34,409 nucleotides of DNA from a virus, in IMG/VR virus record IMGVR_UViG_3300034121_000400, positions 1-34,409 of that record; one strand, 5' to 3'. The notes beneath the pieces are model-generated. The model saw only the letters and a list, made by a program, of their open reading frames with translations. It searched no databases and had not been told where the DNA came from. Position 1 is the first letter of the stretch, and the number at the start of each line of letters is the position of its first letter. Both the position numbers and the translations under genes were made by a program. Positions 21,806 to 34,409 of this stretch are shown here, in pieces.

Positions 21806-21836
21806 TTTTAGTAATTGAAATTTATTACTATATTTG
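21806..21836 (+). promoter_or_regulatory. Promoter with palindromic operator, copy A
   Basis: The -7 element TATATTTG (21829-21836) fits TAnnTTTG. A T-rich -33 position (21806-21809, TTTT) lies 19 nt upstream. Filling the spacer is the 18-bp palindrome GTAATTGAAATTTATTAC (21811-21828), with GTAAT/ATTAC arms. Near-identical palindromes occupy the same place in promoters B and C. A protein bound here would block polymerase. It drives the small HTH gene at 21864, which suggests autoregulation. Confidence 0.7.
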
Positions 21837-21863
21837 CATTTATAAATTATAAAACAAAATGCT

Positions 21864-22034
21864 ATGAATAAAAAACTAAAAGAATTATTTATTAAATCAG
21901 GCTTAACAAAAGCCGAGTTTTCCAGAAAGTGCGGAATTAAAAAACAAAATCTTAATCCGTATTTAACCGATTTGTATGAAATGAAACTTTCAACTTTTGA
22001 AAAAATAAAAAAGAAGTATTATGAACGTAGTTAG
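21864..22034 (+). CDS. Cro-like HTH regulator (56 aa)
   Basis: A 56-aa protein that is essentially one helix-turn-helix domain of the XRE/Cro type: LKELFIKSGLTKAEFSRKCG (5-24) is helices 1-2 with the LTKAEFSRKCGI turn, and IKKQNLNPYL (25-34) is the recognition helix. The C-terminus is lysine-rich. No dimerisation or cleavage domain is present, so it resembles Cro or the controller proteins of restriction-modification systems more than a CI repressor. It overlaps the cytosine methyltransferase by 14 nt, so the two are expressed together. Promoter A with its palindrome lies directly upstream, and the same palindrome marks two other promoters. The simplest reading is that this protein controls all three. 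Confidence 0.8.
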   Translation: MNKKLKELFIKSGLTKAEFSRKCGIKKQNLNPYLTDLYEMKLSTFEKIKKKYYERS

Positions 22035-23025
22035 CCTATTTAACGGAATGAATACAGGCAGACAAGCTTTGGAAAACGTAGGTATAAAAGTCGATAAATA
22101 CTATTCAAGTGAGATAAAGCCTTACGCTATTGAATTAACTCAATACCATTTTCCTGATACTATTCAAGTAGGCGACGTAACCAAATGGAGAGAATGGGAT
22201 ATTGATTGGAAAAGCATTGATTTAATATTAAGCGGATCGCCTTGCCAAGATTTAAGCGCAGCAGGAAAACGTGCCGGAATTAATGGTAAAAAATCTTCTT
22301 TATTTTTTGTATTTATTGAGATATTAGAACACGTTAAATCACTTAATCCAAATGTATTATTCCTTCAAGAAAATGTTGGTTCAGCTTCTAAATTGGATGT
22401 CGGTATTATGTCAAGAGCGTTGGGAGTTTATCCTGTTAGAATCAATTCAAAGTTAGTTACTGCTCAATTAAGGGATCGTTATTATTGGAGTAATATAAGA
22501 ACAAAAGAAACGATGTTTGATGTAGTTACAGATATTCCACAACCGAAAGATAGAAATATAATGTTTAAAGATATTTTAACAAGTGGTTATATTGATGTTG
22601 ACAAACACAATTGTTTAAAAACATATAGAAGCGATGGAAGTCAAGAATATTTAAAACACAGAAACGAAACTACAGGGATGATTACTTTGATTTATGAAGT
22701 AAACAACGAATTAAGATGTAAAACAAATACTGTAAGAGGATATGATATAGTTACAGAAGATGATTGTTTGGATTTATCTTTTACAACAAGCACAACTCGC
22801 AGAGGTAGAGTTACAAAAGGCAAAAGTCCTTGTTTAATGGAAAGTTCAAATAATCTTTATTCTTATAAAGATGGAATTGTAAGAACAGTTAACCAGGTTG
22901 AAATGGAAAGATTACAGGGTTTTCCTGATGGATATACAAGTATTTTATCTAAAGCAAAAGCAGGATCATTGCTTGGAGATGGTTGGACTTTACCAGTAAT
23001 TGAACATATTTTTTCATTTATTTAA
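22021..23025 (+). CDS. C5-cytosine DNA methyltransferase
   Basis: A 334-aa enzyme transferring methyl from SAM to cytosine C5. Motif I is VVSLFNGMNTG (3-13). Motif IV SGSPCQDLSAAGK (71-83) has the catalytic Cys75. Motif VI is ENVG (117-120) and motif VIII QLRDRYYW (149-156). The target-recognition region is about 170-285, and motifs IX-X are RTVNQVEMERLQGFPDGYT and LGDGWTLPVIEHIF. The motif VIII form resembles the Dnmt3-like bacterial group. All catalytic motifs are intact. No endonuclease partner is adjacent, so it is an orphan modification enzyme, probably protecting phage DNA. It is co-transcribed with the HTH gene, which may time its expression. Confidence 0.95.
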   Translation: MNVVSLFNGMNTGRQALENVGIKVDKYYSSEIKPYAIELTQYHFPDTIQVGDVTKWREWDIDWKSIDLILSGSPCQDLSAAGKRAGINGKKSSLFFVFIEILEHVKSLNPNVLFLQENVGSASKLDVGIMSRALGVYPVRINSKLVTAQLRDRYYWSNIRTKETMFDVVTDIPQPKDRNIMFKDILTSGYIDVDKHNCLKTYRSDGSQEYLKHRNETTGMITLIYEVNNELRCKTNTVRGYDIVTEDDCLDLSFTTSTTRRGRVTKGKSPCLMESSNNLYSYKDGIVRTVNQVEMERLQGFPDGYTSILSKAKAGSLLGDGWTLPVIEHIFSFI

Positions 23026-23032
23026 TTATTTA

Positions 23033-23063
23033 TTTGCGTAATTAAAAATTATTACTATCTTTG
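23033..23063 (+). promoter_or_regulatory. Promoter with palindromic operator, copy B
   Basis: -33 TTTG (23033-23036), then exactly 19 nt, then -7 TATCTTTG (23056-23063): a full match to the Bacteroidetes promoter pattern. The spacer contains GTAATTAAAAATTATTAC (23038-23055), differing from copy A at 2 of 18 positions. It lies 7 nt after the methyltransferase stop and serves the small-gene/ERF/SSB operon beginning at 23086. Confidence 0.75.
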
Positions 23064-23085
23064 ACAAAAATAAAACAAAACAACT

Positions 23086-23178
23086 ATGAAAAACTTCTTT
23101 TTAAAACTCGAGTACCAAATTAGATTTGCTTACATTTTAGCGATAATCTTTATTCTTAATTTCATCTTCAGATCATAA
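23086..23178 (+). CDS. Small membrane protein (30 aa), first gene of operon B
   Basis: A 30-aa protein with a basic N-terminus (MKNFFLKLEY) and one hydrophobic helix (about 13-27, FAYILAIIFILNFIF). It is the first ORF behind promoter B with an A-rich leader typical of this genome, and its stop overlaps the next ATG (TAATG). No family is recognised. It is too short for standard gene finders. Confidence 0.55.
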   Translation: MKNFFLKLEYQIRFAYILAIIFILNFIFRS

Positions 23179-23279
23179 TGGAAAACAAAGAAAAATTTAA
23201 TGAATGGATGCAAAAGATTAAAAATATTTATTTTGCAGATAATGAACAAATGACTAACGCTTACACTAAAATCAATTAA
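23178..23279 (+). CDS. Small hypothetical protein (33 aa)
   Basis: A 33-aa polar, helical protein (MENKEKFNEWMQKIKN start) linked to its neighbours by a one-base overlap upstream and a 1-nt gap downstream. No family or motif is recognised. The tight packing between two other ORFs is the main support. Confidence 0.5.
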   Translation: MENKEKFNEWMQKIKNIYFADNEQMTNAYTKIN

Positions 23280-23280
23280 T

Positions 23281-23532
23281 ATGAATAGTTACGATGCTTG
23301 GAAAGATGGCAGGTTTAATCCTGAATCACCAATAAACCAAATAGAAGTAGATGCCGAAATAGTTAACGGTTGGGACAACTTAACAGATGCTTATTATAGC
23401 GGACACGTTCACGCTTTTTACGATGTTCAAATAGAAATATTAAAAGAATTAGATATACTATTAGAGATAGCAAAATTAAACGCATCAGGAACAAAAAGCA
23501 GAATTGAGGATTTAATAAATAAATGTAAATAA
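23281..23532 (+). CDS. Hypothetical protein (83 aa)
   Basis: An 83-aa acidic protein beginning MNSYDAWKDGRFNPES, with a YYSGHVHAFYDVQIEIL segment in the middle and a helical C-terminus. Located in the operon leading to the recombination genes, one base before the next ORF's spacer. No family is recognised. It contains no membrane segment. Confidence 0.65.
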   Translation: MNSYDAWKDGRFNPESPINQIEVDAEIVNGWDNLTDAYYSGHVHAFYDVQIEILKELDILLEIAKLNASGTKSRIEDLINKCK

Positions 23533-23533
23533 G

Positions 23534-23980
23534 ATGGGAGCAAATTCAGAAACATTTTTGGAATTAAGAGCGCAAGACTTCGTAACAATGTATGACGCAA
23601 GTTTTACAAAAAAAGAAGCGCAAAAAGTAGGTTTAAAACTTGTTACCGATTTACTGGATAATGGTAACGTAGATAAAATGGAATTCATAGCTAATTTAGC
23701 ACGTTTAAGCGAAGTTGTAGGTACTGCAATGACTGAAGCGAGAAAACATATTACCGAAGAAAAACAGACTGTTATGGGCGTTGAATTTACTCCAGTTAAC
23801 GGAGGTAATACGATTAACTATTTAGAAGATCCAATTTACCAACAATTAAAAGCGGATTTAGATGCAAGAGCTGAATTGCTTAAATTAGCGCAAAAACAAA
23901 ACGTTATTGACATGTACGGTAATGACGTACCAGTGGTAAGCACAACGCCACGCAAATCGAGTATAACTATTAAATTTTAA
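23534..23980 (+). CDS. Hypothetical protein before the annealing protein gene (148 aa)
   Basis: A 148-aa protein, helical and charged. Visible parts are AQDFVTMYDASFTKKEAQ (about 13-30), a central helix NVDKMEFIANLARLSEVVG (about 45-63), and a C-terminal segment with DPIYQQLKADLDARAELLK. Genes in this position next to ERF or RecT-type proteins often encode partner proteins or exonuclease-like factors, but I see no nuclease motif. The function is open. It is 4 nt upstream of the ERF gene and so co-expressed with it. Confidence 0.65.
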   Translation: MGANSETFLELRAQDFVTMYDASFTKKEAQKVGLKLVTDLLDNGNVDKMEFIANLARLSEVVGTAMTEARKHITEEKQTVMGVEFTPVNGGNTINYLEDPIYQQLKADLDARAELLKLAQKQNVIDMYGNDVPVVSTTPRKSSITIKF

Positions 23981-23984
23981 TACT

Positions 23985-24470
23985 ATGAAAAATATAGCAT
24001 CCGCATTAGTAAAAGCACAATTAGAAATGATAACACCAAAGAAGGGTAGTGTTAATCCATTCTTTAAGAATAAGTACGCAGATTTAAACGATGTTTTACA
24101 AGCAGTTGTACCAGCTTTAAACAATAACGGAATTGTATTATTACAACCTTTGATTAATATTGATGGCAAAAACTTTGTAAAAACTGTTTTAATGCACGAA
24201 TCAGGCGAAATATTCGAATCTTTGGCAGAAATATTTTGTAAAAATACAAATGACGCACAGGCCTATGGATCTGGTGTAACTTATGCACGTAGGTATAGTT
24301 TGAGCTCAATTTGCGGTATCGGTTCAGAGGATGACGATGCACAAAAAGCGGTACAAGCTAAACCAATGGCAACGGCTGAAATATTAGCCAAAGCGAAGGC
24401 AACAGGGGCGACAATGGCGCAAATTAAGAGTAAATACAGCGTAACAGCTGAACAAGAAAAGAATTATTAA
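23985..24470 (+). CDS. erf: ERF-family single-strand annealing protein
   Basis: A 161-aa recombinase of the ERF superfamily. Diagnostic segments are KNKYADLNDVLQAVVPALNN (about 28-47) near the N-terminus and the signature QAYGSGVTYARRYSLSSICG (about 91-110) followed by the acidic EDDDAQKA. The family anneals complementary single strands, often to circularise or repair phage DNA with an SSB. The SSB-like gene follows 22 nt later, giving a compact recombination pair. Length is at the short end for the family, since ERF proteins are often near 200 aa. Confidence 0.9.
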   Translation: MKNIASALVKAQLEMITPKKGSVNPFFKNKYADLNDVLQAVVPALNNNGIVLLQPLINIDGKNFVKTVLMHESGEIFESLAEIFCKNTNDAQAYGSGVTYARRYSLSSICGIGSEDDDAQKAVQAKPMATAEILAKAKATGATMAQIKSKYSVTAEQEKNY

Positions 24471-24492
24471 TAATCACTAAATAAATAAACAA

Positions 24493-24828
24493 ATGGCTTT
24501 AGAAGTAACAGGAATTATCGAAAACATTTTACAATTAGAAAAAGGACAGTCAAAAGATGGTAAACAATGGCAAAAACAAAGTTTCTTATTAAAAACAGAT
24601 GAGCAATATAACAACCTTTATTGTTTTGAAATTTTTGGCGATGAGAAAGTAGAAAACTTTATTAAATTCAATAAAGTAGGTCAATCGGTAAAAGTGGATT
24701 TTAACGTAGGTTGCAACGAGTGGAACGGTAAATATTTTACTAAATTATCAGCTTGGAAAATCTTTAAAGCTGATTCAAAAGAAGAAGAAGTTTCACAAGA
24801 AGAAATCGAATCTGATTTACCATTTTAG
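24493..24828 (+). CDS. ssb: Single-stranded DNA-binding protein (DUF3127-like OB fold)
   Basis: A 111-aa protein resembling the Bacteroidetes DUF3127 proteins: MALEVTGIIENILQ start, KDGKQWQKQSFLLKT strand pair, then FEIFGDEKVENF. The C-terminus is acidic and ends in ESDLPF, the classic SSB tail that recruits partner proteins. An OB fold plus DLPF tail, next to ERF, strongly supports ssDNA binding in phage replication and recombination. Confidence 0.82.
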   Translation: MALEVTGIIENILQLEKGQSKDGKQWQKQSFLLKTDEQYNNLYCFEIFGDEKVENFIKFNKVGQSVKVDFNVGCNEWNGKYFTKLSAWKIFKADSKEEEVSQEEIESDLPF

Positions 24829-24840
24829 TATTAACAAAAT

Positions 24841-24860
24841 CCCCCTATTAATTTAGGGGG
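24841..24860. other. Perfect 7-bp GC-rich hairpin between SSB and the next gene
   Basis: CCCCCTA, a 6-nt loop TTAATT, then TAGGGGG. No T-run follows on the + strand, so it is not a canonical terminator here. Read on the - strand it is followed by GATTTTG. It may be an mRNA-processing or stability element that makes the SSB message more abundant than its downstream genes. Confidence 0.7.
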
Positions 24861-24880
24861 TTATAAAAACAAAAAACAAA

Positions 24881-25222
24881 ATGATACCAGAAGAAAATAG
24901 AATTAATCACATCGTTATAAGTTCACAAGTTTTGAGTTATTATATTGCTGGAATGAAATCAGACAACTATTTTAAAAAAGTTTTATTAAAATTTACAAAT
25001 AATTTTATTGACCAACTTAAAACTGTTGAATGGAAGTATTTCGATAAAATGTTTAAAAAGGAAGAAGAAGCCAGTGTAATTGTTTATGAAACTTATGACA
25101 ACTTTATAAAAACAATTGCATCCGTTCCAATTTGGGAAATGCAGAATGTGAGCCAAATTTTAGAAGCGTACAACAAAGATCCTAAAAGTATAGAAGGATT
25201 GGTAAAAAAGATATTAAAATGA
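24881..25222 (+). CDS. Hypothetical protein (113 aa)
   Basis: A 113-aa protein, mostly helical, K/E/F-rich (MIPEENRINHIVISSQ start; VEWKYFDKMFKKEEE in the middle). No membrane segment or catalytic motif is visible. It has an A-rich leader ending in AAAACAAAATG and its stop overlaps the next gene (ATGA). No family is recognised. Confidence 0.6.
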   Translation: MIPEENRINHIVISSQVLSYYIAGMKSDNYFKKVLLKFTNNFIDQLKTVEWKYFDKMFKKEEEASVIVYETYDNFIKTIASVPIWEMQNVSQILEAYNKDPKSIEGLVKKILK

Positions 25223-25392
25223 AAACAGAAGAAATTGCACAATTAATAGAATGGATTGATACAGAACTTAACTTGGTAAAAATTCAAGATGGTTTTTTAT
25301 ATCATGGTCAATATTTTACTAACGAACAAATCATTGAAATATGGAAGCGCCAAAACACTACGACAATAGCAAAGGAACGCTCTACAAAGTAG
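25219..25392 (+). CDS. Small hypothetical protein (57 aa)
   Basis: A 57-aa protein (MKTEEIAQLIEWIDTELNLV start) coupled upstream by ATGA. Its last 52 nt overlap the next gene in a different frame. The first 40 residues look like a folded helical/strand unit (IQDGFLYHGQYFTNEQIIEI), while the overlapped tail is low in hydrophobics. Probably real because it fills a gap that would otherwise be 118 nt. Function unknown. Confidence 0.5.
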   Translation: MKTEEIAQLIEWIDTELNLVKIQDGFLYHGQYFTNEQIIEIWKRQNTTTIAKERSTK

Positions 25393-25532
25393 CATCCGAA
25401 AGAAATTGGAATCCTTATTTATTTGACATTGTCAAAAGACTTGAAAGAGCAGAAAAAAAAGGAGAGTTTAAAACAGATTTAGAAAAAAGTATATTAGTAA
25501 TTAATTTATGGTTAAAAGAAAATGATAAATAA
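25341..25532 (+). CDS. DUF3310-like small protein
   Basis: A 63-aa protein with the pattern PKHYDNSKGTLYK, FDIVKRLERAEKKGEF and DLEKSILVINLWL. It recalls the DUF3310 phage family (HY...iKYi.R...K....eDL.KA...l), sometimes annotated as a nucleotide-kinase-related protein without biochemical proof. It overlaps the following MazG-like gene by 11 nt, which fits a nucleotide-metabolism pair. Confidence 0.65.
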   Translation: MEAPKHYDNSKGTLYKVASERNWNPYLFDIVKRLERAEKKGEFKTDLEKSILVINLWLKENDK

Positions 25533-25887
25533 AGTTAGAGAATTTCAGAAAACAGGACAACAAATTGTAAACGATTTACCAACGGTTAATAGTTTTAAAG
25601 ATTGTGAATTACGATACAAGCTAATGAAAGAGGAAAACCTTGAGTATTTGGGTGCGTGTTATAATAATGATAAAGTTGAAATATTAGATGCATTAGTGGA
25701 TCAGGCTTATGTATTATTTGGCACTATTAATTTTCACGGAATGCAGGATATATTTTCGGAAGCATTTAGGAGAGTTCACGCTAACAATATGAGTAAGTTT
25801 CCAAATGGAAAAGTATTGTTAGATCCTGATGGCAAAATATTGAAACCTGAAGGATTTGTACCGGTCGATTTGTCAGATTTAATTTAG
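25522..25887 (+). CDS. MazG-like nucleotide pyrophosphohydrolase
   Basis: A 121-aa all-alpha NTP pyrophosphatase candidate. The metal-binding signature EExxE...ExxD is visible as E37, E38, E41 and E53, D56, with D60 following. The C-terminal stretch FRRVHANNMSKF, then DPDGKILKPEGF, is typical of phage members of this superfamily. Such enzymes hydrolyse NTPs or dNTPs to monophosphates, cleaning nucleotide pools or lowering alarmone-type signals. It is the last gene of the operon before a strong terminator. Confidence 0.82.
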   Translation: MINKVREFQKTGQQIVNDLPTVNSFKDCELRYKLMKEENLEYLGACYNNDKVEILDALVDQAYVLFGTINFHGMQDIFSEAFRRVHANNMSKFPNGKVLLDPDGKILKPEGFVPVDLSDLI

Positions 25888-25894
25888 TATATTT

Positions 25895-25926
25895 ATACGC
25901 TCTATAACAGGAGCGTATTTTTTTTT
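25895..25926 (+). terminator. Strong terminator after the MazG-like gene
   Basis: Perfect 8-bp stem ATACGCTC/GAGCGTAT with an 8-nt loop, followed by a T-run to 25926. It ends the operon that starts at promoter B. Confidence 0.93.
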
Positions 25927-25943
25927 AATCAAATAACCAAAAT

Positions 25944-27104
25944 ATGAGTATTTATTCAAAGTATAATGAAGAAATTTTAAAACTATTATTAACAGGCTTA
26001 AGTAATCGAGAAATAGCACGTCAAATTTCTCCTGATAAAGTTTCTGGAATAAGAAAGCATATCGCAAAATTAAAAGACAATACAGGTATTTTAAATGCTT
26101 GTAATAGCGTAGGAGTTGACCCTAAAACAGTTCCGATGTTATGGCTTAAAAATAAAAATGAATCGGTAAGAGTTACAAATCCACTATTCGAGAAATTAAG
26201 TGATGAAGAAAAAAACATTAAAGATATTGACTTTTTAAATATTTTTAAAGATAAAATTAAGCCTATAACCTTAAAACCAATTGATAATTTTCAGCCTATA
26301 GCCTTATTTGATAGGTTGGTTTATACCGATGTCCATGTAGGTATGAATGTTAATCCAGATGGTTACTCTCTTTACGGTGGCTTATGGAATGAGGAGGAAC
26401 TAACTAAAAGATTAAATTTAATGGTTAATCATACCTTAAATAATAAAAAATCAAATACTTTAATAATACACGAATTAGGCGATTTTCTCGATGGTTGGGA
26501 TGGTTATACAACAAGAGGCGGTCATTCATTGCCACAAAACATGGATAACCAAAAAGCCTTTGATACTGCATTAACTTTTAAAATAAAATTAATTGATTCT
26601 TTAATTAACCATTATGACAAAATTAAGTGTATAAATATCTGTAATGACAATCACGCTGGATCATTTGGTTATATTGTAAATTCCGCATTTAAAACCTACA
26701 TAGAATTGAAATATCCTGAAAGGATTGAAATAATTAACCAAAGGAGATTTATAGACCATTACAGCCAAGATAATATAACTTTTATACTCACGCACGGTAA
26801 AGATGATAAAAGCCTTAAATTTGGATTTAAACCTATTTTAGATGCAAAGCAAATCGAAAAAATAAAAAACTATATTGACGAGAATAAACTGCATAATCAA
26901 AAAATAGAGTTTAGCAAGGGTGATTCACACCAATATATTTTCGACAATTCAACTTCAAAACATTTCAGTTATCAAAACTTTCCTGCATTTTCACCCCCTT
27001 CAAATTGGGTACAGACAAACTTCCAGAATTCAATTAGTGGCTTTATTCATTTTAATTATTATGAAAATGGACAAAAAAGTATAAACGATTTTATTTTTAA
27101 TTAA
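25944..27104 (+). CDS. HTH / calcineurin-like metallophosphoesterase fusion
   Basis: A 386-aa protein. Residues 8-40 look like a helix-turn-helix (LKLLLTGLSNREIARQIS). From about 120 a metallophosphoesterase core shows TDVHVG (D129, H131), ELGDFLDG (G179, D180), NDNHAG (N236, H237), LTHGKDD (H284) and GDSHQ (H329), the full ligand set of the two-metal DxH/GD/GNH/H/GxH family. Related phage enzymes act as DNA exo/endonucleases (Mre11/SbcD-like) or as phosphatases. The DNA-binding N-terminus and position upstream of helicase and primase favour DNA processing. It starts 17 nt after a terminator, so its promoter is not obvious. Confidence 0.82.
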   Translation: MSIYSKYNEEILKLLLTGLSNREIARQISPDKVSGIRKHIAKLKDNTGILNACNSVGVDPKTVPMLWLKNKNESVRVTNPLFEKLSDEEKNIKDIDFLNIFKDKIKPITLKPIDNFQPIALFDRLVYTDVHVGMNVNPDGYSLYGGLWNEEELTKRLNLMVNHTLNNKKSNTLIIHELGDFLDGWDGYTTRGGHSLPQNMDNQKAFDTALTFKIKLIDSLINHYDKIKCINICNDNHAGSFGYIVNSAFKTYIELKYPERIEIINQRRFIDHYSQDNITFILTHGKDDKSLKFGFKPILDAKQIEKIKNYIDENKLHNQKIEFSKGDSHQYIFDNSTSKHFSYQNFPAFSPPSNWVQTNFQNSISGFIHFNYYENGQKSINDFIFN

Positions 27105-27120
27105 AAAAGTATTATATTTG
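27090..27120 (+). promoter_or_regulatory. Promoter for the structured leader and helicase gene
   Basis: -7 TATATTTG (27113-27120) is a full TAnnTTTG match. A weak T-rich -33 position (27090-27093) lies 19 nt upstream. It overlaps the 3' end of the metallophosphoesterase gene and would start a transcript near 27125, about 87 nt ahead of the helicase ATG. It lacks the palindrome found in promoters A-C. Confidence 0.55.
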
Positions 27121-27124
27121 TGCC

Positions 27125-27211
27125 ATAGGAGTGGAAGCCTAATTAACAATATTATTAAATTCCCGCAATGATAAAGTCTTCCACCTTTTGATTTGCGGGT
27201 TTTTGTATTAA
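27125..27211 (+). ncRNA. Structured leader RNA with interleaved helices (putative pseudoknot / attenuator)
   Basis: Two 7-bp helices interlock. S1 pairs GTGGAAG (27131-27137) with CTTCCAC (27178-27184). S2 pairs CCCGCAA (27162-27168) with TTGCGGG (27193-27199). The order S1-5', S2-5', S1-3', S2-3' is H-type pseudoknot topology with connecting segments of 24, 9 and 8 nt. S2 is followed by TTTTT (27200-27204), so S2 alone looks like an intrinsic terminator that S1 could support or compete with. A 7-codon ORF (27168-27191) lies across the helices. It could be a riboregulator or riboswitch, or a short RNA. No known class is recognised. Confidence 0.55.
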
Positions 27212-28768
27212 ATGAAAAAAACTTTAAGACCCTACCAACAAGAGTTGTTAGATGAAATCCTTCAAAAAATTCCAATTACTGAAAAACTTTGCGTCCAACT
27301 TTCAACTGGTGGTGGAAAAACAGTAATTTTTACGGAATTAGTAACTCAATTAAACGCTAAGACTTTAATACTTGTTGACAGTATTGATTTAGTAAATCAA
27401 ACTATTGATACTTTTAAAAAGCAAGGCGCAGACATTGGATCAATTTTAGCTGGAGCAAAAAAAATACCTGATAATAAAATATTAGTAGGTATGATTAAAT
27501 CCGTTTACAATAGACGTGAAAAATTACCTAAATTTGATTATTGCATTATTGATGAATGCCATATATGGGAATTTAATAAATTATTTACTTACCTAACTGA
27601 TTGTAAAATTATTGGATTTACTGCTACTCCTGCACGTTTAAAAAGATATTCTATTGATGAAAATATAAGCGCGCAAGAAACAATGAGTGATGTATATGAT
27701 GATATTGTATGCGGTAAGCCAATTGAATGGTTAATGCAAAATAATTATTTAGTTCCTGAAAAAACAGAATACATTGAATTTGATAGCACACCTTTAAAAA
27801 CTGATGCAAGTGGTGAATTTACGGCTGCAAGTTTAAAAGAAGTATTTCAGCATCCTGATTATAAAAAAGCACTTCGCAAAACATACGACAAACTTTGTGA
27901 AGGTAAAAAAACAATGATATTTACTTCGGCAACGGAAACAAATGCTATTTATGCCGAGTTATTTAAAGATAAAAATATAAAAACTTATGACAGCGTAAAT
28001 AATACACCAAATGAAAGAGATAGTATTATTGAATGGTTTAAAAATGAAAGAGATGCTATTTTAATAAATACTGGATGTTTCACAAAAGGTTTTGATGTAT
28101 GTGATGTAGAATGTATTATTATGGCGCGCGCTACAAAATCATTATCTTTGTGGGTTCAGATTGCGGGGCGTGGAGCAAGACCAACCAATAAAATAGAAAA
28201 ACCTTTTTTCCTTTTAATAGATGGTGGGAATAATAATAAAGAACACCAAGCATTTAGTTTTAATCGAGATTGGAAAAAAATATTTTCAGATAAGAAAATA
28301 AAAGATAAACTTTTAGATATTACAGAATGTGAGGAATGTGGATTTACTTATGAGATTAAAGAAAGTTGTTGCCCTAATTGTGGACACGTTCCTGATATTA
28401 TAGAAGTAGAAGAGGATATTCCAAAAGAACAAAAACTATTTGAAATTCAAGGTAAAAAAAATAATACAATCCCCCCAACATTAGATTTAATTTATTTTAT
28501 TAACAAAGGCTCAACAAAATATGAAACTTTAAAAGTTTTACGCGAAAAATGGATATATTTTTTATCTAAAATAGAAAAAATTGAATTTCATTTGCATAAT
28601 CCAAATATTCAATTAAATCAAAGATTTAGAAAATATTTATTCCCAGCATATTCAAAGACAATTACATCAATGCTAAAAGATAGCAAACACGTTAAATACG
28701 AAACTTTAAAAACAAAAATAATATATGATACAATTCAGCAGTTACAAAACGGTAAAAGACACGAATAA
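27212..28768 (+). CDS. SF2 DNA helicase (DEAD/DEAH-like, type I/III restriction helicase fold) with zinc finger
   Basis: A 518-aa ATP-dependent helicase: Q-like RPYQQELLDEI start, Walker A STGGGKT (31-37), motif II DECH (114-117), motif III FTATPAR (136-142), motif VI QIAGRGARP (about 316-324). A C-terminal zinc-finger pair CEEC...CPNC lies at about 373-392, followed by a helical tail. This matches phage replicative or repair helicases of the RecQ-/RadD-like group. It sits behind the structured leader RNA and overlaps the primase gene by 44 nt, suggesting a helicase-primase unit. Confidence 0.93.
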   Translation: MKKTLRPYQQELLDEILQKIPITEKLCVQLSTGGGKTVIFTELVTQLNAKTLILVDSIDLVNQTIDTFKKQGADIGSILAGAKKIPDNKILVGMIKSVYNRREKLPKFDYCIIDECHIWEFNKLFTYLTDCKIIGFTATPARLKRYSIDENISAQETMSDVYDDIVCGKPIEWLMQNNYLVPEKTEYIEFDSTPLKTDASGEFTAASLKEVFQHPDYKKALRKTYDKLCEGKKTMIFTSATETNAIYAELFKDKNIKTYDSVNNTPNERDSIIEWFKNERDAILINTGCFTKGFDVCDVECIIMARATKSLSLWVQIAGRGARPTNKIEKPFFLLIDGGNNNKEHQAFSFNRDWKKIFSDKKIKDKLLDITECEECGFTYEIKESCCPNCGHVPDIIEVEEDIPKEQKLFEIQGKKNNTIPPTLDLIYFINKGSTKYETLKVLREKWIYFLSKIEKIEFHLHNPNIQLNQRFRKYLFPAYSKTITSMLKDSKHVKYETLKTKIIYDTIQQLQNGKRHE

Positions 28769-30908
28769 AATAGATATTGATTTAAAAGATTATATCGATG
28801 CAATTAAAAATGGAAGATTTCAGGATGTTATTTTAAGCGCGCGATCCGTTAAATCGGATAAACAAAAGTATAATGAGTTTAAAAGTCTAACTCCCTGCAT
28901 TACTGGTTCAGCAATAATGAATCAAGGATCAAAAGTTGAAAGCAATATAAAAGAGTTAAACGGATTAATTGTTTTAGATATTGACGAGAATGTTGATATT
29001 GAAACAATCACAAAAATAAACAATGATAAACATACTTTTATATCGCATCGTTCATTTGGTGGTGATGGTGTTTGTGTTTTTGTAAAAATAAATACTACTA
29101 AATTTTTAGAATCATTTAACGATTTAGGTCAATATTATTGGGATAATTTTAATTTAACAATCGATCCAAGTTGTAAGAATAAAAACAGACTTCGATATTA
29201 TTCTTACGATCCTTATTTATTTTATAATGAAAATGCTAAAAAGTTTATTGCAAAATCTAAAATTGATAAACCAAAAGAAAAAGAAAAATTCATTTTTGTA
29301 AAAGATGATTTTACAGCCGTTTTAAATAAAATTTCAAATATTGATCTATGTCAGGATGATTATTCTAGATACGTTCAAATTGGATTTGCCATTGGGTCGG
29401 AATTTGGTGCATCAGGATTAGAATATTTTAAAGCAATTTGTCAAAACGGTTCTAAATACGACGCGAAAAATATTGAAAAACATTATAAGCAATTTTGTAA
29501 AGTTGGAAATGTTACAATAGCTACTTTTTATCACTTTGTAAAACAAGAAGGAATTGAAATTTATTCTGACAAAACAAAGAAAACAATTACAACCGTAGCT
29601 GCACAAAAGGCGCAAGGAACTCCAACAATAGAAAGCGTAAAAAAACATATTATAGAAGTTTTAAAAATTGATAATCCAGATGAAAATCTAATTAAAGAAT
29701 TAATTGAATCAAAATTTGATTATTCAGCAGGAATAGAAAATGAAGAAAGCGAAGTAAATCAGCTGAAAAACTTTATTATTGAAAATTTTAATCCTGTTAG
29801 AGATTCAATAACAAATGAAATATTTTTAAATGGAATACTACTCGATGATATTAAATTGAATACCATTTATTTTGCTGCTAAAAATTGTTTAACTTTTAAT
29901 GTAAATAAATCAGATGTTAGGGATATGATAAATTCAGAAGCTACTCCAACTTATAATCCTTTAAATGAATTTTTTAAAATTAAAGAATTTGAAAACGGAA
30001 TAATTGATAAATACATTGATTGCATCCAACCAAATAACGAATATAATAGATGGGCATTTAAAAAATGGATAGTTGGTTGTGTTCATAATTGGTGTAGCCC
30101 ATTACATGAAACAAAAGTATCCCCTCTTACTTTGGTATTATGCGGAATCCAACAAGGCACTGGAAAAACTTCTTTTTTTAGAAACTTACTACCAAAAGAA
30201 CTACAAAAATACCTGATTGAGCATAAAATAGACAGCAAGGATAAAGATTCTATTTATAATTTAGTAAAAGGATTAATTGTTTTAGATGATGAGTTTGGTG
30301 GGTTAGCCACAAAAGATGTAAAAGATTTTAAAAAGATAGCAGATGCAAACCAGATCGATATAAGATTACCTTATTCAGCATTTTATTCAAAAATGAAACG
30401 TAAGGCATCATTATGCGGAACGAGTAACGATGTATCAGTTTTAAAAGATGTAACGGGAAACAGGCGTATTTTGCCCTTAAATGTAACTTCCATTGATTAT
30501 AATAAAATGATTTTATTAGATACAGATAGTTTATGGCGTGAAGCCTTCAAATTATGGCGCGAAAATTATGACTGGAAGATATACACAAGCGATGATATTG
30601 ATTATTTAGCAAAAAACACAAATAACAATATAGAAGTGATGCCAGTTGAGGAATTGTTTTTTAATAGGTTTTCGATTGATTTAAACGATGTTTATACAGA
30701 AAGACGCATAATGAATCAGGGCGACATTTTAAATAGCTTAAATTTAAACACAGCTATCAATGTGAGTAAGTACGATGTAAAAGATATTTTTGTAAAAAAT
30801 AAGCTTGAATATAAATCATACAGGATTAAAGGAATGGTTAAGATGGGTATTGAATTATTTGTAAAACCTGAATTTGACGATAAAATTAATGATGAAGTTC
30901 CTTTTTAA
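28725..30908 (+). CDS. VirE-type primase-helicase
   Basis: A 727-aa multidomain replication protein. Residues 1-170 match the VirE N-terminal (BT4734-like) primase-type domain: DLKDYIDAIKNGRFQDVI near the start, GLIVLDIDENVDIE near 84-97, SHRSFGGDGVCVFVKI after it. A PriCT-like segment (RYVQIGFAIGSEFGASGLEY) follows at about 212-231. The VirE/D5-like ATPase has Walker A GIQQGTGKT (474-482), a Walker B-like LIVLDDEFGG, and the GNRRILPLNV sensor-like motif near 582-591. It primes and unwinds phage DNA and overlaps the helicase gene. The acidic end DEVPF resembles an SSB-interaction tail motif. Confidence 0.9.
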   Translation: MIQFSSYKTVKDTNKIDIDLKDYIDAIKNGRFQDVILSARSVKSDKQKYNEFKSLTPCITGSAIMNQGSKVESNIKELNGLIVLDIDENVDIETITKINNDKHTFISHRSFGGDGVCVFVKINTTKFLESFNDLGQYYWDNFNLTIDPSCKNKNRLRYYSYDPYLFYNENAKKFIAKSKIDKPKEKEKFIFVKDDFTAVLNKISNIDLCQDDYSRYVQIGFAIGSEFGASGLEYFKAICQNGSKYDAKNIEKHYKQFCKVGNVTIATFYHFVKQEGIEIYSDKTKKTITTVAAQKAQGTPTIESVKKHIIEVLKIDNPDENLIKELIESKFDYSAGIENEESEVNQLKNFIIENFNPVRDSITNEIFLNGILLDDIKLNTIYFAAKNCLTFNVNKSDVRDMINSEATPTYNPLNEFFKIKEFENGIIDKYIDCIQPNNEYNRWAFKKWIVGCVHNWCSPLHETKVSPLTLVLCGIQQGTGKTSFFRNLLPKELQKYLIEHKIDSKDKDSIYNLVKGLIVLDDEFGGLATKDVKDFKKIADANQIDIRLPYSAFYSKMKRKASLCGTSNDVSVLKDVTGNRRILPLNVTSIDYNKMILLDTDSLWREAFKLWRENYDWKIYTSDDIDYLAKNTNNNIEVMPVEELFFNRFSIDLNDVYTERRIMNQGDILNSLNLNTAINVSKYDVKDIFVKNKLEYKSYRIKGMVKMGIELFVKPEFDDKINDEVPF

Positions 30909-30909
30909 A

Positions 30910-31161
30910 TGTAATATTGTAATATAAATGTAATATTTTTATATTACACGTTAACCCTTACCACCATTGACTTAAAGCCAATTGTAATATTGTAATATAA
31001 AAATATCATAAACTTATAATAATATATAATAATTTATATAAATATACATAATAGTGTTTTTTTTATATAGAATCTATATAAGTTTTAAAAAAAAATATTA
31101 CATATTACATCGGCTTAAAGTATTGAAAACAAACGAATTAAATGTAATAAAAAATATTACA
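30910..31161. repeat. TGTAATAT iteron cluster; candidate replication origin or control region
   Basis: The gene-free region 30909-31165 is extremely AT-rich and contains nine copies of TGTAATAT. Forward copies start at 30910, 30918, 30929, 30983 and 30991 (two head-to-tail pairs). Inverted ATATTACA copies start at 30941, 31095, 31102 and 31154. The copies at 30929 and 30941 form a perfect 8-bp hairpin with a TTTT loop. TGTAATA at 31143 pairs with TATTACA at 31155, just before the ATG at 31166. Only 30948-30980 is not AT-dominated. Iterons next to primase genes are typical of phage origins; an operator array is the alternative. Confidence 0.7.
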
Positions 31162-31165
31162 AATT

Positions 31166-31498
31166 ATGACAGAAGCACAAATTCAACAACAAATCATTAT
31201 TTGGTTTAGGAATAATTACCAAATAAAAGGCAAAGGATTGATATTTTCAGTGGCAAATGAATCAACCTACAAAAACAAAGTATTTAAGAATACAGGAACG
31301 ATGTCTGGAGTATCTGATTTGATAGTAGTTTTAAATGGTAAAACTATTTTTATAGAATTAAAAACAGAAATTGGAATCCAAAGCCAAAAACAAAAAGACT
31401 TTGAAAGTAAAATAAAAGAATTGAATCAGGAGTATTATTTAATCAGATCATTAGAACAATTTAAAAATGAAATTGAAAGACAAAATAGAATTATTTAA
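31166..31498 (+). CDS. VRR-NUC domain nuclease
   Basis: A 110-aa stand-alone VRR-NUC (PD-(D/E)xK-type) nuclease: GVSDLI with D51 (48-53), the catalytic IELK with E64 and K66, then the conserved GIQSQKQKDF (70-79). E3 and Q7 near the N-terminus match the family's first helix. Phage versions cleave DNA junctions or branched replication intermediates. Its position right after the iteron region and primase suggests a role in replication or recombination. Expression may be controlled by the hairpin at its start. Confidence 0.92.
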   Translation: MTEAQIQQQIIIWFRNNYQIKGKGLIFSVANESTYKNKVFKNTGTMSGVSDLIVVLNGKTIFIELKTEIGIQSQKQKDFESKIKELNQEYYLIRSLEQFKNEIERQNRII

Positions 31499-31673
31499 AA
31501 AAAAGAATCCTGAAAGATTAGAACATACCTTTAAAAATGGTTTAATATTCAAAGGAAGTGGATCTTATAAGTTACATTGGTGGTTAGATAGTCTTTATAA
31601 AGATGCTGTAAATGAGTGGGTTACAAAAAAAGAAAAAAATATTGCAAAATTTATTGAAAAATGTATTGCGTAA
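31467..31673 (+). CDS. Hypothetical protein (68 aa)
   Basis: A 68-aa basic protein (MKLKDKIELFKKKNPERLEH start; NGLIFKGSGSYKLHWWLDSL in the middle). It overlaps the nuclease by 32 nt and its stop codon lies inside promoter C's palindrome. No family is recognised. The high Lys content would suit nucleic-acid binding, but that is only a guess. Confidence 0.6.
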   Translation: MKLKDKIELFKKKNPERLEHTFKNGLIFKGSGSYKLHWWLDSLYKDAVNEWVTKKEKNIAKFIEKCIA

Positions 31674-31695
31674 TTAAAATTTATTACGATATTTG
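31666..31695 (+). promoter_or_regulatory. Promoter with palindromic operator, copy C
   Basis: TTG (31666-31668), 19 nt, then GATATTTG (31688-31695), a -7 element with one mismatch. The spacer holds GTAATTAAAATTTATTAC (31670-31687), one base different from each of copies A and B. The flank TTGCGTAATTAAAA is shared with copy B. It serves the small-gene block starting at 31727. Confidence 0.65.
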
Positions 31696-32824: not shown

Positions 32825-32950
32825 ATGGCAAATAAAAGAAATATAAAACCGTTAACGCAAAGGTTATCGATTTACGAGCAAGAATATAAATTGAAAGAAC
32901 AAGCAAAAGAAATACTTAAAAAAATAAAAAATAATGAAAACACTAAATAG
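32825..32950 (+). CDS. Small basic helical protein (41 aa)
   Basis: A 41-aa protein, Lys-rich, with MANKRNIKPLTQRLSIYEQE start and a helical C-terminus. It overlaps the next gene by 17 nt. No family is recognised. A basic unstructured N-terminus followed by a helix could bind nucleic acid. The long overlap suggests coupled expression with the PAPS-reductase-like gene. Confidence 0.5.
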   Translation: MANKRNIKPLTQRLSIYEQEYKLKEQAKEILKKIKNNENTK

Positions 32951-33740
32951 CGTTTCAGGTGGTAAAACATCTTCTTATTTAGCTAAACATTACCCAGCTG
33001 ATTACAATGTGTTTTCTTTAGTTAGAATTGAGGATATAAGATGTAGTCCAAAAGATAAAAAAATAGTTCAATTAGTTTCTGATAAAATAGGAATGGATTT
33101 TATTGCTACAGCTGAAAGTGATAAAACGTTAAAAGTTGTTTTAGATTTAGAGCAAGTTATCGGAACAGAAATAAAATGGCTTACTGGAGATACATTCGAG
33201 AAAATAATATCTAAAAATTATTTGCCAAATCAAAGAACTCGTTTTTGTACTACTGATATGAAAATTAATCCAATTGCAAATTTTTGTAGAAATGAAATAA
33301 AAGAAATAGTTTCAACTCGTTTAGGTATTCGATACGATGAAGAAAATAGAGTAAATTACGATAATACTGATTTTAGATTTCATAACGGTTATTCTAAAAA
33401 TGGTCGTAATAAATGGGTAATTGAAAAATATAGAGAATTAGAATATCCTTTAGTTAATGATAAAATTGACCATTACCAAATATATTTATGGTCATTATCA
33501 ACAAATTTAGATTTTCCTCAAGATAGCAATTGCGTAGGATGTTTTCATAAACCAAAACAACAGCTTCGCAAAAATTGGGATGATGAACCTTTAAAGATGC
33601 AATGGTTTGCAGAACAGGAAACAAAAAAGAAAAAATGGAAACAGGGAACTTCTTATTTTAATATTAAAGAAATAGGTTTGCAAACTGATTTTATTTTTGG
33701 AGGGGGAGCGAGTTGTAATAGTGGAGGATGTACAGATTAA
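32934..33740 (+). CDS. PAPS reductase / ATP-pyrophosphatase-like protein
   Basis: A 268-aa protein of the adenine-nucleotide alpha-hydrolase fold. The PP-loop is SGGKTS (residues 8-13) and RFCTTDMKI (C105, K110) matches the FC....K segment of CysH-like proteins. It also has NCVGCFHK (C200, C203) and a C-terminal GASCNSGGCTD (C261, C266), which may bind metal or an iron-sulphur cluster. Phage members are often labelled phosphoadenosine phosphosulfate reductase but lack sulfate-assimilation neighbours, as here. A role in nucleic-acid thiolation or another ATP-activated modification is possible but unproven. Confidence 0.8.
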   Translation: MKTLNSVSGGKTSSYLAKHYPADYNVFSLVRIEDIRCSPKDKKIVQLVSDKIGMDFIATAESDKTLKVVLDLEQVIGTEIKWLTGDTFEKIISKNYLPNQRTRFCTTDMKINPIANFCRNEIKEIVSTRLGIRYDEENRVNYDNTDFRFHNGYSKNGRNKWVIEKYRELEYPLVNDKIDHYQIYLWSLSTNLDFPQDSNCVGCFHKPKQQLRKNWDDEPLKMQWFAEQETKKKKWKQGTSYFNIKEIGLQTDFIFGGGASCNSGGCTD

Positions 33741-34228: not shown

Positions 34229-34284
34229 CTTTAGTCCCAAATTTAAACAATATTAGGGACAGAATTAAAAAAGAAAAAATATGA
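34213..34284 (+). CDS. Possible 23-aa basic mini-protein
   Basis: A 23-codon ORF overlapping the previous gene by 16 nt and the next by 4 nt (ATGA). It is basic (MHHRLTLVP start, IKKEKI end). An inverted repeat GTCCC/GGGAC (34234-34260) lies inside. It may be a real peptide or only a coupling frame in this dense region. Confidence 0.35.
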   Translation: MHHRLTLVPNLNNIRDRIKKEKI

Positions 34285-34370
34285 TAAAAATATTATTGAT
34301 TTGGATAGCGTACGAATTTATAAGACCAAAAGCGATTTGGTTATGGAATTTTTTAATTAGTAAAGCATGA
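34281..34370 (+). CDS. Small membrane protein across the circle junction (29 aa)
   Basis: A 29-aa hydrophobic protein with MIKILLIWIAYEF start and WLWNFLISKA end. It has two short hydrophobic parts around RPK, or one interfacial helix. ATGA overlaps link it to the ORFs on both sides, so it belongs to the same coupled chain that continues at position 85 of the window. All but its first two bases lie in the repeated 127 bp. Function unknown. Confidence 0.5.
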   Translation: MIKILLIWIAYEFIRPKAIWLWNFLISKA

Positions 34371-34409
34371 TAGAATTTGCAACAGGAATAACAATAGGTT
34401 TCTTTATAG
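34283..34409. repeat. Direct terminal repeat, right copy
   Basis: Identical to 1-127. It joins the chain of small genes at the right end to the methyltransferase and terminase genes at the left end, giving a sensible continuous operon when closed. The partial ORF at 34367-34409 is simply the start of the gene at 85-180. Confidence 0.95.

Follow-up and report, generated by a model that had tools for sequence, protein, structure and literature searches.

A small HTH protein as the probable repressor of several early promoters in a group of flavobacterial-type phages

A phage genome in the IMG/VR record IMGVR_UViG_3300034121_000400 encodes a 56-aa, single-domain helix-turn-helix (HTH) protein of the Cro/C1 type (21864..22034, plus strand), a proposed autorepressor that probably acts as a repressor through 18-bp GTAATn8ATTAC sites set into several promoters. 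A regulon run by this protein was the core of the original prediction, and it is supported: the sites are confined to promoters, track the HTH gene among related phages, include the promoter of the HTH gene itself and change with the recognition helix of the protein.

The phage genome

The window, i.e. the whole stretch of DNA analysed (34,409 nucleotides), begins and ends with a 127-bp direct terminal repeat (1-127 and 34283-34409), which marks it as a complete circular map of about 34.3 kb. Its main genes lie on one strand, in the order terminase, portal, capsid, tail, endolysin, HTH gene, recombination, replication and an operon with a PAPS-reductase-like gene. A ParB-like N-terminal domain fused to an N6/N4 DNA methyltransferase is encoded at 190-1293.

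Is this a temperate phage? Neither an integrase nor a CI-type repressor was recognised among the window proteins scanned (some small ORFs were outside the scan), and a profile search of 84,980 prokaryote genomes found no homologue of the HTH protein. The hallmarks of a temperate phage's lysogeny repressor/Cro pair, namely an integrase with a CI-type repressor and occurrence in prophages, are thus not seen, and the phage looks virulent. The nearest isolates by primase are the Flavobacterium muminphages (64% over full length), which are described as virulent (PMC7077304). A near-identity search of a phage collection with 12 kb of the window gave no match, nor did a tblastn search of named phages with the 56-aa protein. 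The group of phages that carries the HTH gene and operators appears to be flavobacterial.

Operators and promoters

Three 18-mers had been proposed as operators, and all are present exactly, on the plus strand: GTAATTGAAATTTATTAC at 21811..21828 (operator 1), GTAATTAAAAATTATTAC at 23038..23055 (operator 2) and GTAATTAAAATTTATTAC at 31670..31687 (the third proposed site, here termed operator 4). They are identical at 16 of 18 positions, differing at positions 7 and 11. Their palindromic character is imperfect in the window, where 6, 6 and 7 of 9 pairs match; a perfect form, GTAATTAAATTTAATTAC, is present in relatives.

A uniform spacing between -33 and -7 elements had also been proposed, and this is true of two promoters. 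Promoter 2 (23034..23063, plus strand) has TTG at 23034-23036, a 19-nt spacer and the -7 element TATCTTTG at 23056-23063; promoter 4 (31666..31695, plus strand) has TTG at 31666-31668, again exactly 19 nt before its -7 element, GATATTTG at 31688-31695. Promoter 1 departs from the pattern, with TTT where the -33 TTG is expected, followed by operator 1 and a -7 element of the Bacteroidota TAnnTTTG type (TATATTTG, 21829..21836, plus strand). The TAnnTTTG box is that of flavobacterial sigma-A promoters (consensus from PMC9723704).

What do these promoters control? Promoter 1 serves the HTH gene and, presumably on the same transcript, a C5 cytosine DNA methyltransferase gene (22021..23025, plus strand; Pfam DNA_methylase, 2.8e-31) that overlaps the HTH gene by 14 nt. 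Promoter 2 heads the recombination operon (23281..25887, plus strand), made up of small ORFs and genes for an ERF single-strand annealing protein (23985-24470) and for DUF3127, DUF3310-like and PRA-PH/MazG-like proteins. The operon that starts at promoter 4 contains the PAPS-reductase-like gene (32934-33740), an assignment that is borne out (phrog_424, 8e-25); a DnaA-like gene, also assigned to this operon, was searched for among the window proteins and none was found. The PAPS-reductase-like protein has weak similarity to DndC of DNA phosphorothioation. A fourth promoter can be added to the three proposed. Ahead of the helicase-primase genes lies a degenerate operator 3 (TTAATn9ATTAT; 27097..27120, plus strand), which runs into a -7 element (TATATTTG, 27113-27120). 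Its arms are one base too far apart in the window, but the homologous place in relatives has an intact or one-mismatch site.

The consensus scan first suggested, with up to three mismatches, gives five matches in the window, a number reached by 10 of 100 shuffles and thus not significant; one of them, at 29550 with three mismatches, was discarded for its position within the primase gene. Significance therefore rests on exact arms and promoter context, and the loose scan was replaced by the strict two-arm pattern GTAATn8ATTAC. This pattern occurs four times in the window against 0.108 expected, and none of 500 dinucleotide shuffles reaches four. With a -7 box within 0-2 nt it occurs three times against 0.002 expected.

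The HTH protein

The proposed Cro-like HTH assignment was confirmed by a match to Pfam HTH_26 (23.5 bits; gathering cut-off 22), whereas NCBIfam and PADLOC gave nothing specific. An AlphaFold2 model (pLDDT 91.6) predicts four helices (residues 2-12, 16-23, 27-34 and 42-54); the curated family match, together with this predicted compact four- to five-helix fold, in which helices 2-3 form the HTH, would place the protein among the Cro/C1-type (XRE) regulators. Fold matches include DdrO, SinR, P2 C, C.AhdI, C.Esp1396I, Aca10 and Aca2, with many XRE proteins at Z 6-8, and 434 Cro is among the Foldseek matches. Aca10 aligns to 53 of the 56 residues at Z 7.4 and Aca2 has Z 6.1, values in the range of a common fold; since a Z below 8 can mean merely a common arrangement, these matches support the HTH fold only.

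Operators in related phages

The HTH protein or a homologue is encoded in 28 contigs, the window included. Do the sites fall at random in them? They do not: a -7 box follows within 0-3 nt at 60 of 65 exact sites, and not one of the 65 is in a minus-strand promoter. Four homologous operator places recur, the first at the HTH operon, the second at the recombination operon, the third behind an exonuclease gene, where it heads the helicase operon, and the fourth behind VRR-NUC. Several relatives also have a recurrent GTAATTATGAAAGATTAC some 395-500 bp downstream of the third place. It lacks a -7 box and falls inside the span of the helicase-like ORF behind that place, and it was left out of the operator count.

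In all 47 distinct contexts of the window type, TAAT and A14 are present and the inner bases are variable. The gap between operator and -7 box is 0, 1 or 2 nt in 38, 8 and 7 contexts, respectively, and 0-3 nt overall; the operator shifts as a unit relative to the box and so is not merely a part of the promoter.

Which protein reads these sites? That a different protein does so, either from the host or from another gene of the phage, with the HTH gene a mere neighbour, is unlikely, although it deserves some weight: binding by the HTH protein is something we infer, and one contig (G065) has an HTH homologue of 62% identity and no such operator. Several observations point the other way. The HTH gene itself has an operator-promoter at most 760 bp upstream in 27 of the 28 contigs. 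Phages that share other genes of the region and lack this HTH family also lack the operators: none of 15 relatives sharing ERF or primase has an exact site, and those sharing the exonuclease are likewise without operators. Absence of the HTH gene in the 15 was established by a profile search of the whole records in nine cases and by phmmer with the available stretch in the others; two of the nine, G039 and mumin6-1, have a distant 16-bit HTH each. Cellular promoters, where the palindrome might also have been met, hardly ever have it: the strict operator-promoter pattern matches twice in 84,980 prokaryote species genomes, neither time near such an HTH gene and both times apparently by chance.

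Some HTH-negative contigs (G004, G019, G031 and L108/L109) have promoter-embedded sites, and these are fragments of the same group with the HTH locus off the contig. The association of operator with HTH gene has a Fisher probability of 1e-10, a value that overstates independence because the HTH-positive contigs are essentially one clade; the association represents few independent events. The collection-wide scan also matched contigs without the HTH gene, in about the number expected by chance. Several of these matches have G/C-rich centres, look like chance and were set aside; the AT-rich ones are in L110, L114/L129/L150, L125/L127, L126/L140 and L139. Those of L114, L129 and L150 (about 140 kb), of L125 and L127 and of L126 and L140 belong to unrelated phages, with an AT-rich GTAATn8ATTAC directly before TATnTTTG. 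They are due either to chance or to another regulator with a similar site.

A different reader is also hard to reconcile with variation in the protein and its sites. In one HTH lineage (G061/G063/G064; 45-53% identity), K26 is changed to Q, so that the recognition helix reads IQ(K/R)QNLN instead of IKKQNLN. In all seven sites of this lineage, position 6 is A in both halves and none has a GTAATT half-site, whereas 35 of 46 sites in the K26 lineages have at least one (Fisher 2e-4, relatedness ignored). This covariation of helix and site is suggestive, and it counts as one evolutionary event.

A proposed early shut-off

If the HTH protein is the repressor, the following course of events may be envisaged. 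A dimer would bind the 18-bp GTAATn8ATTAC site, which takes up the spacer that separates the -33 from the -7 element in a promoter of the host sigma type, and would thereby exclude RNA polymerase. In early infection, all the promoters would be active. As the protein accumulates it would shut off its own gene along with the DNA-modification gene of the same transcript, and also the recombination and PAPS-reductase operons and, in most relatives, the replication operon. The protein would be a self-regulating switch by which a virulent phage turns off early transcription, similar to Cro or to the Aca (anti-CRISPR-associated) proteins. In the Aca case, inverted repeats are located in the core promoter and repression is by blocking RNA polymerase (PMC9410906, PMC9410881). 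Repression rather than activation, and the timing, are what we infer for the present protein; in a phage without signs of lysogeny, an early burst followed by shut-off is the likely use. The poor -33 element of promoter 1 counts against this explanation.

Could the protein instead be an activator, or a dual regulator, working from within the spacer with a MerR-like geometry? The operator does occupy a nearly constant position between the -33 and -7 elements, and the spacer is 19 nt at two of the three promoters. Spacers of 19 nt are ordinary for Bacteroidota TTG/TAnnTTTG promoters, so no unwinding needs to be assumed; spacer length differs by 2 nt among phages, and the predicted fold is Cro/C1-like and not winged as in MerR. 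A protein required for expression of its own gene, moreover, could not start early transcription. Activation therefore seems quite improbable.

An exchangeable slot behind the HTH gene

The methyltransferase was originally proposed to be under the control of the repressor. In the window it presumably does share the HTH transcript, but it is not a fixed member of the regulon, as relatives have other genes, or none, in its place. Genes in this slot usually overlap or abut the HTH stop codon. The slot holds a C5 methyltransferase of 334-370 aa in the window and in L006 (with remnants in L108 and L109), a C5-type enzyme of 217-221 aa in G047, L010, G010, L020 and L115, a phrog_757 methyltransferase in L011, a Mom-like DNA-modification protein in L008 (contig G043; Pfam Mom 3.3e-25, phrog_1384 1.5e-31) and a 53-aa orphan in G042, L009, G050 and G057. 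It is empty in 11 relatives (G053, G049, G058, L013, L016, L017, L019, L021, L024, L025 and L029), and there operator 2 and the end of the HTH gene overlap. HNH, pentapeptide and orphan genes are found in a second slot, between operator 1 and the HTH gene. As the contents of the slot vary from phage to phage, the methyltransferase is best seen as cargo; what stays constant is the HTH gene together with its operators.

The overlap of a small HTH gene with a methyltransferase gene, and the fold matches to C.Esp1396I and C.AhdI, call to mind a controller (C) protein of a restriction-modification system that includes the adjacent C5 enzyme. The empty slot of 11 relatives and the unrelated methyltransferases, Mom-like protein or orphan found elsewhere make such a role most improbable; no restriction enzyme was recognised beside the HTH gene, and the operators extend to recombination and replication operons.

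DNA methyltransferases and Mom are known anti-restriction devices, and those of the slot presumably act in this way. We tentatively suggest that the whole may be a counter-defence cassette with a fixed regulator: the HTH autorepressor would define a slot in which virulent flavobacterial phages swap DNA-modification genes and small genes of unknown function, all under a promoter that is on early and then off. If so, the 53-aa and 73-75-aa orphans and the pentapeptide protein would represent new anti-defence proteins, and the operator by itself would suffice to locate them; the cassette would be coordinated with the recombination, replication and PAPS-reductase-like operons by a single small protein.

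A repeat cluster behind the primase gene

The fourth gapped palindrome of the window, at 30930, is outside promoters. It lies in an intergenic cluster of 10 GTAATA/TATTAC units within 257 bp (30909-31165), behind the VapE-type primase gene; considered as a fifth operator, it was reassigned to this primase-linked, iteron-like cluster. The cluster is limited to the window and G004, whose primase is 99% identical. At the same place G063 (81% primase) and mumin6-1 (64%) have GGTAACC/GTTACC repeats, and the relatives with operators lack the GTAATA/TATTAC cluster. This is likely to be an origin of replication, with repeats that differ according to the primase. That the palindromes in general are origin iterons, or sites for a replication protein, as this cluster might suggest, is highly improbable, because related primases go with GGTAACC repeats instead and the other sites are single and embedded in promoters.

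Comparison with known systems

Close parallels to the proposed repressor are found among the Aca proteins, especially Aca10. Aca10 is a four-helix HTH dimer with a minimal 19-bp palindrome over the promoter (PMC9410881); Aca proteins, as small four-helix HTH proteins, have an inverted repeat within the core promoter, control their own operon and have neighbour genes of the counter-defence type (PMC9410881, PMC9410906). An inverted repeat inside its own core promoter is likewise found for 27 of the 28 HTH genes. The present protein differs from the solved Aca proteins in having no sequence match to them (Aca10 is not listed at E up to 1), in that no known anti-CRISPR (acr) gene was recognised beside it, in cargo that modifies DNA (slot genes across relatives are DNA modifiers, HNH, pentapeptide or orphan genes), in its three or four promoters instead of one, and in being encoded by the first, not the last, gene of the operon in the window.

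With the lambdoid Cro proteins (lambda, 434) it shares a phage-encoded single HTH domain, palindromic operators that overlap early promoters and a probable role in early shut-off. In contrast to those phages, the window phage yielded neither an integrase nor a CI partner, nor a divergent promoter pair; its genes are on one strand, and the operators are single and dispersed at separate operons. C proteins are similar as small autoregulatory HTH proteins of matching fold encoded beside a methyltransferase; here no restriction enzyme was recognised, the methyltransferase can be replaced or missing, and each promoter has one site and not tandem C-boxes. Muminvirus vB_FspS_mumin6-1 resembles the window in primase (64%) and in a similar helicase-primase-VRR order, but it has no operator of this type, and its distant 16-bit HTH match is gp029.

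Significance

No description of this regulon was found in the open-access literature. A small phage HTH autorepressor with palindromic operators at early promoters is of a well-known kind; distinctive here are the reach over several promoters and the exchangeable DNA-modification slot, and the system is a new, well-supported member of that kind in little-studied phages. Transcriptional timing in Bacteroidota phages has been little studied at the level of phage-encoded regulators. One motif predicts an early regulon across some 30 contigs, marks the exchangeable slot and offers a series of naturally occurring repressor-operator variants. Early promoters of archaeal viruses have been used as a search handle (PMC11065993). 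Similarly, if the repressor works as proposed, its operator would be a handle in the search for unknown counter-defence genes.
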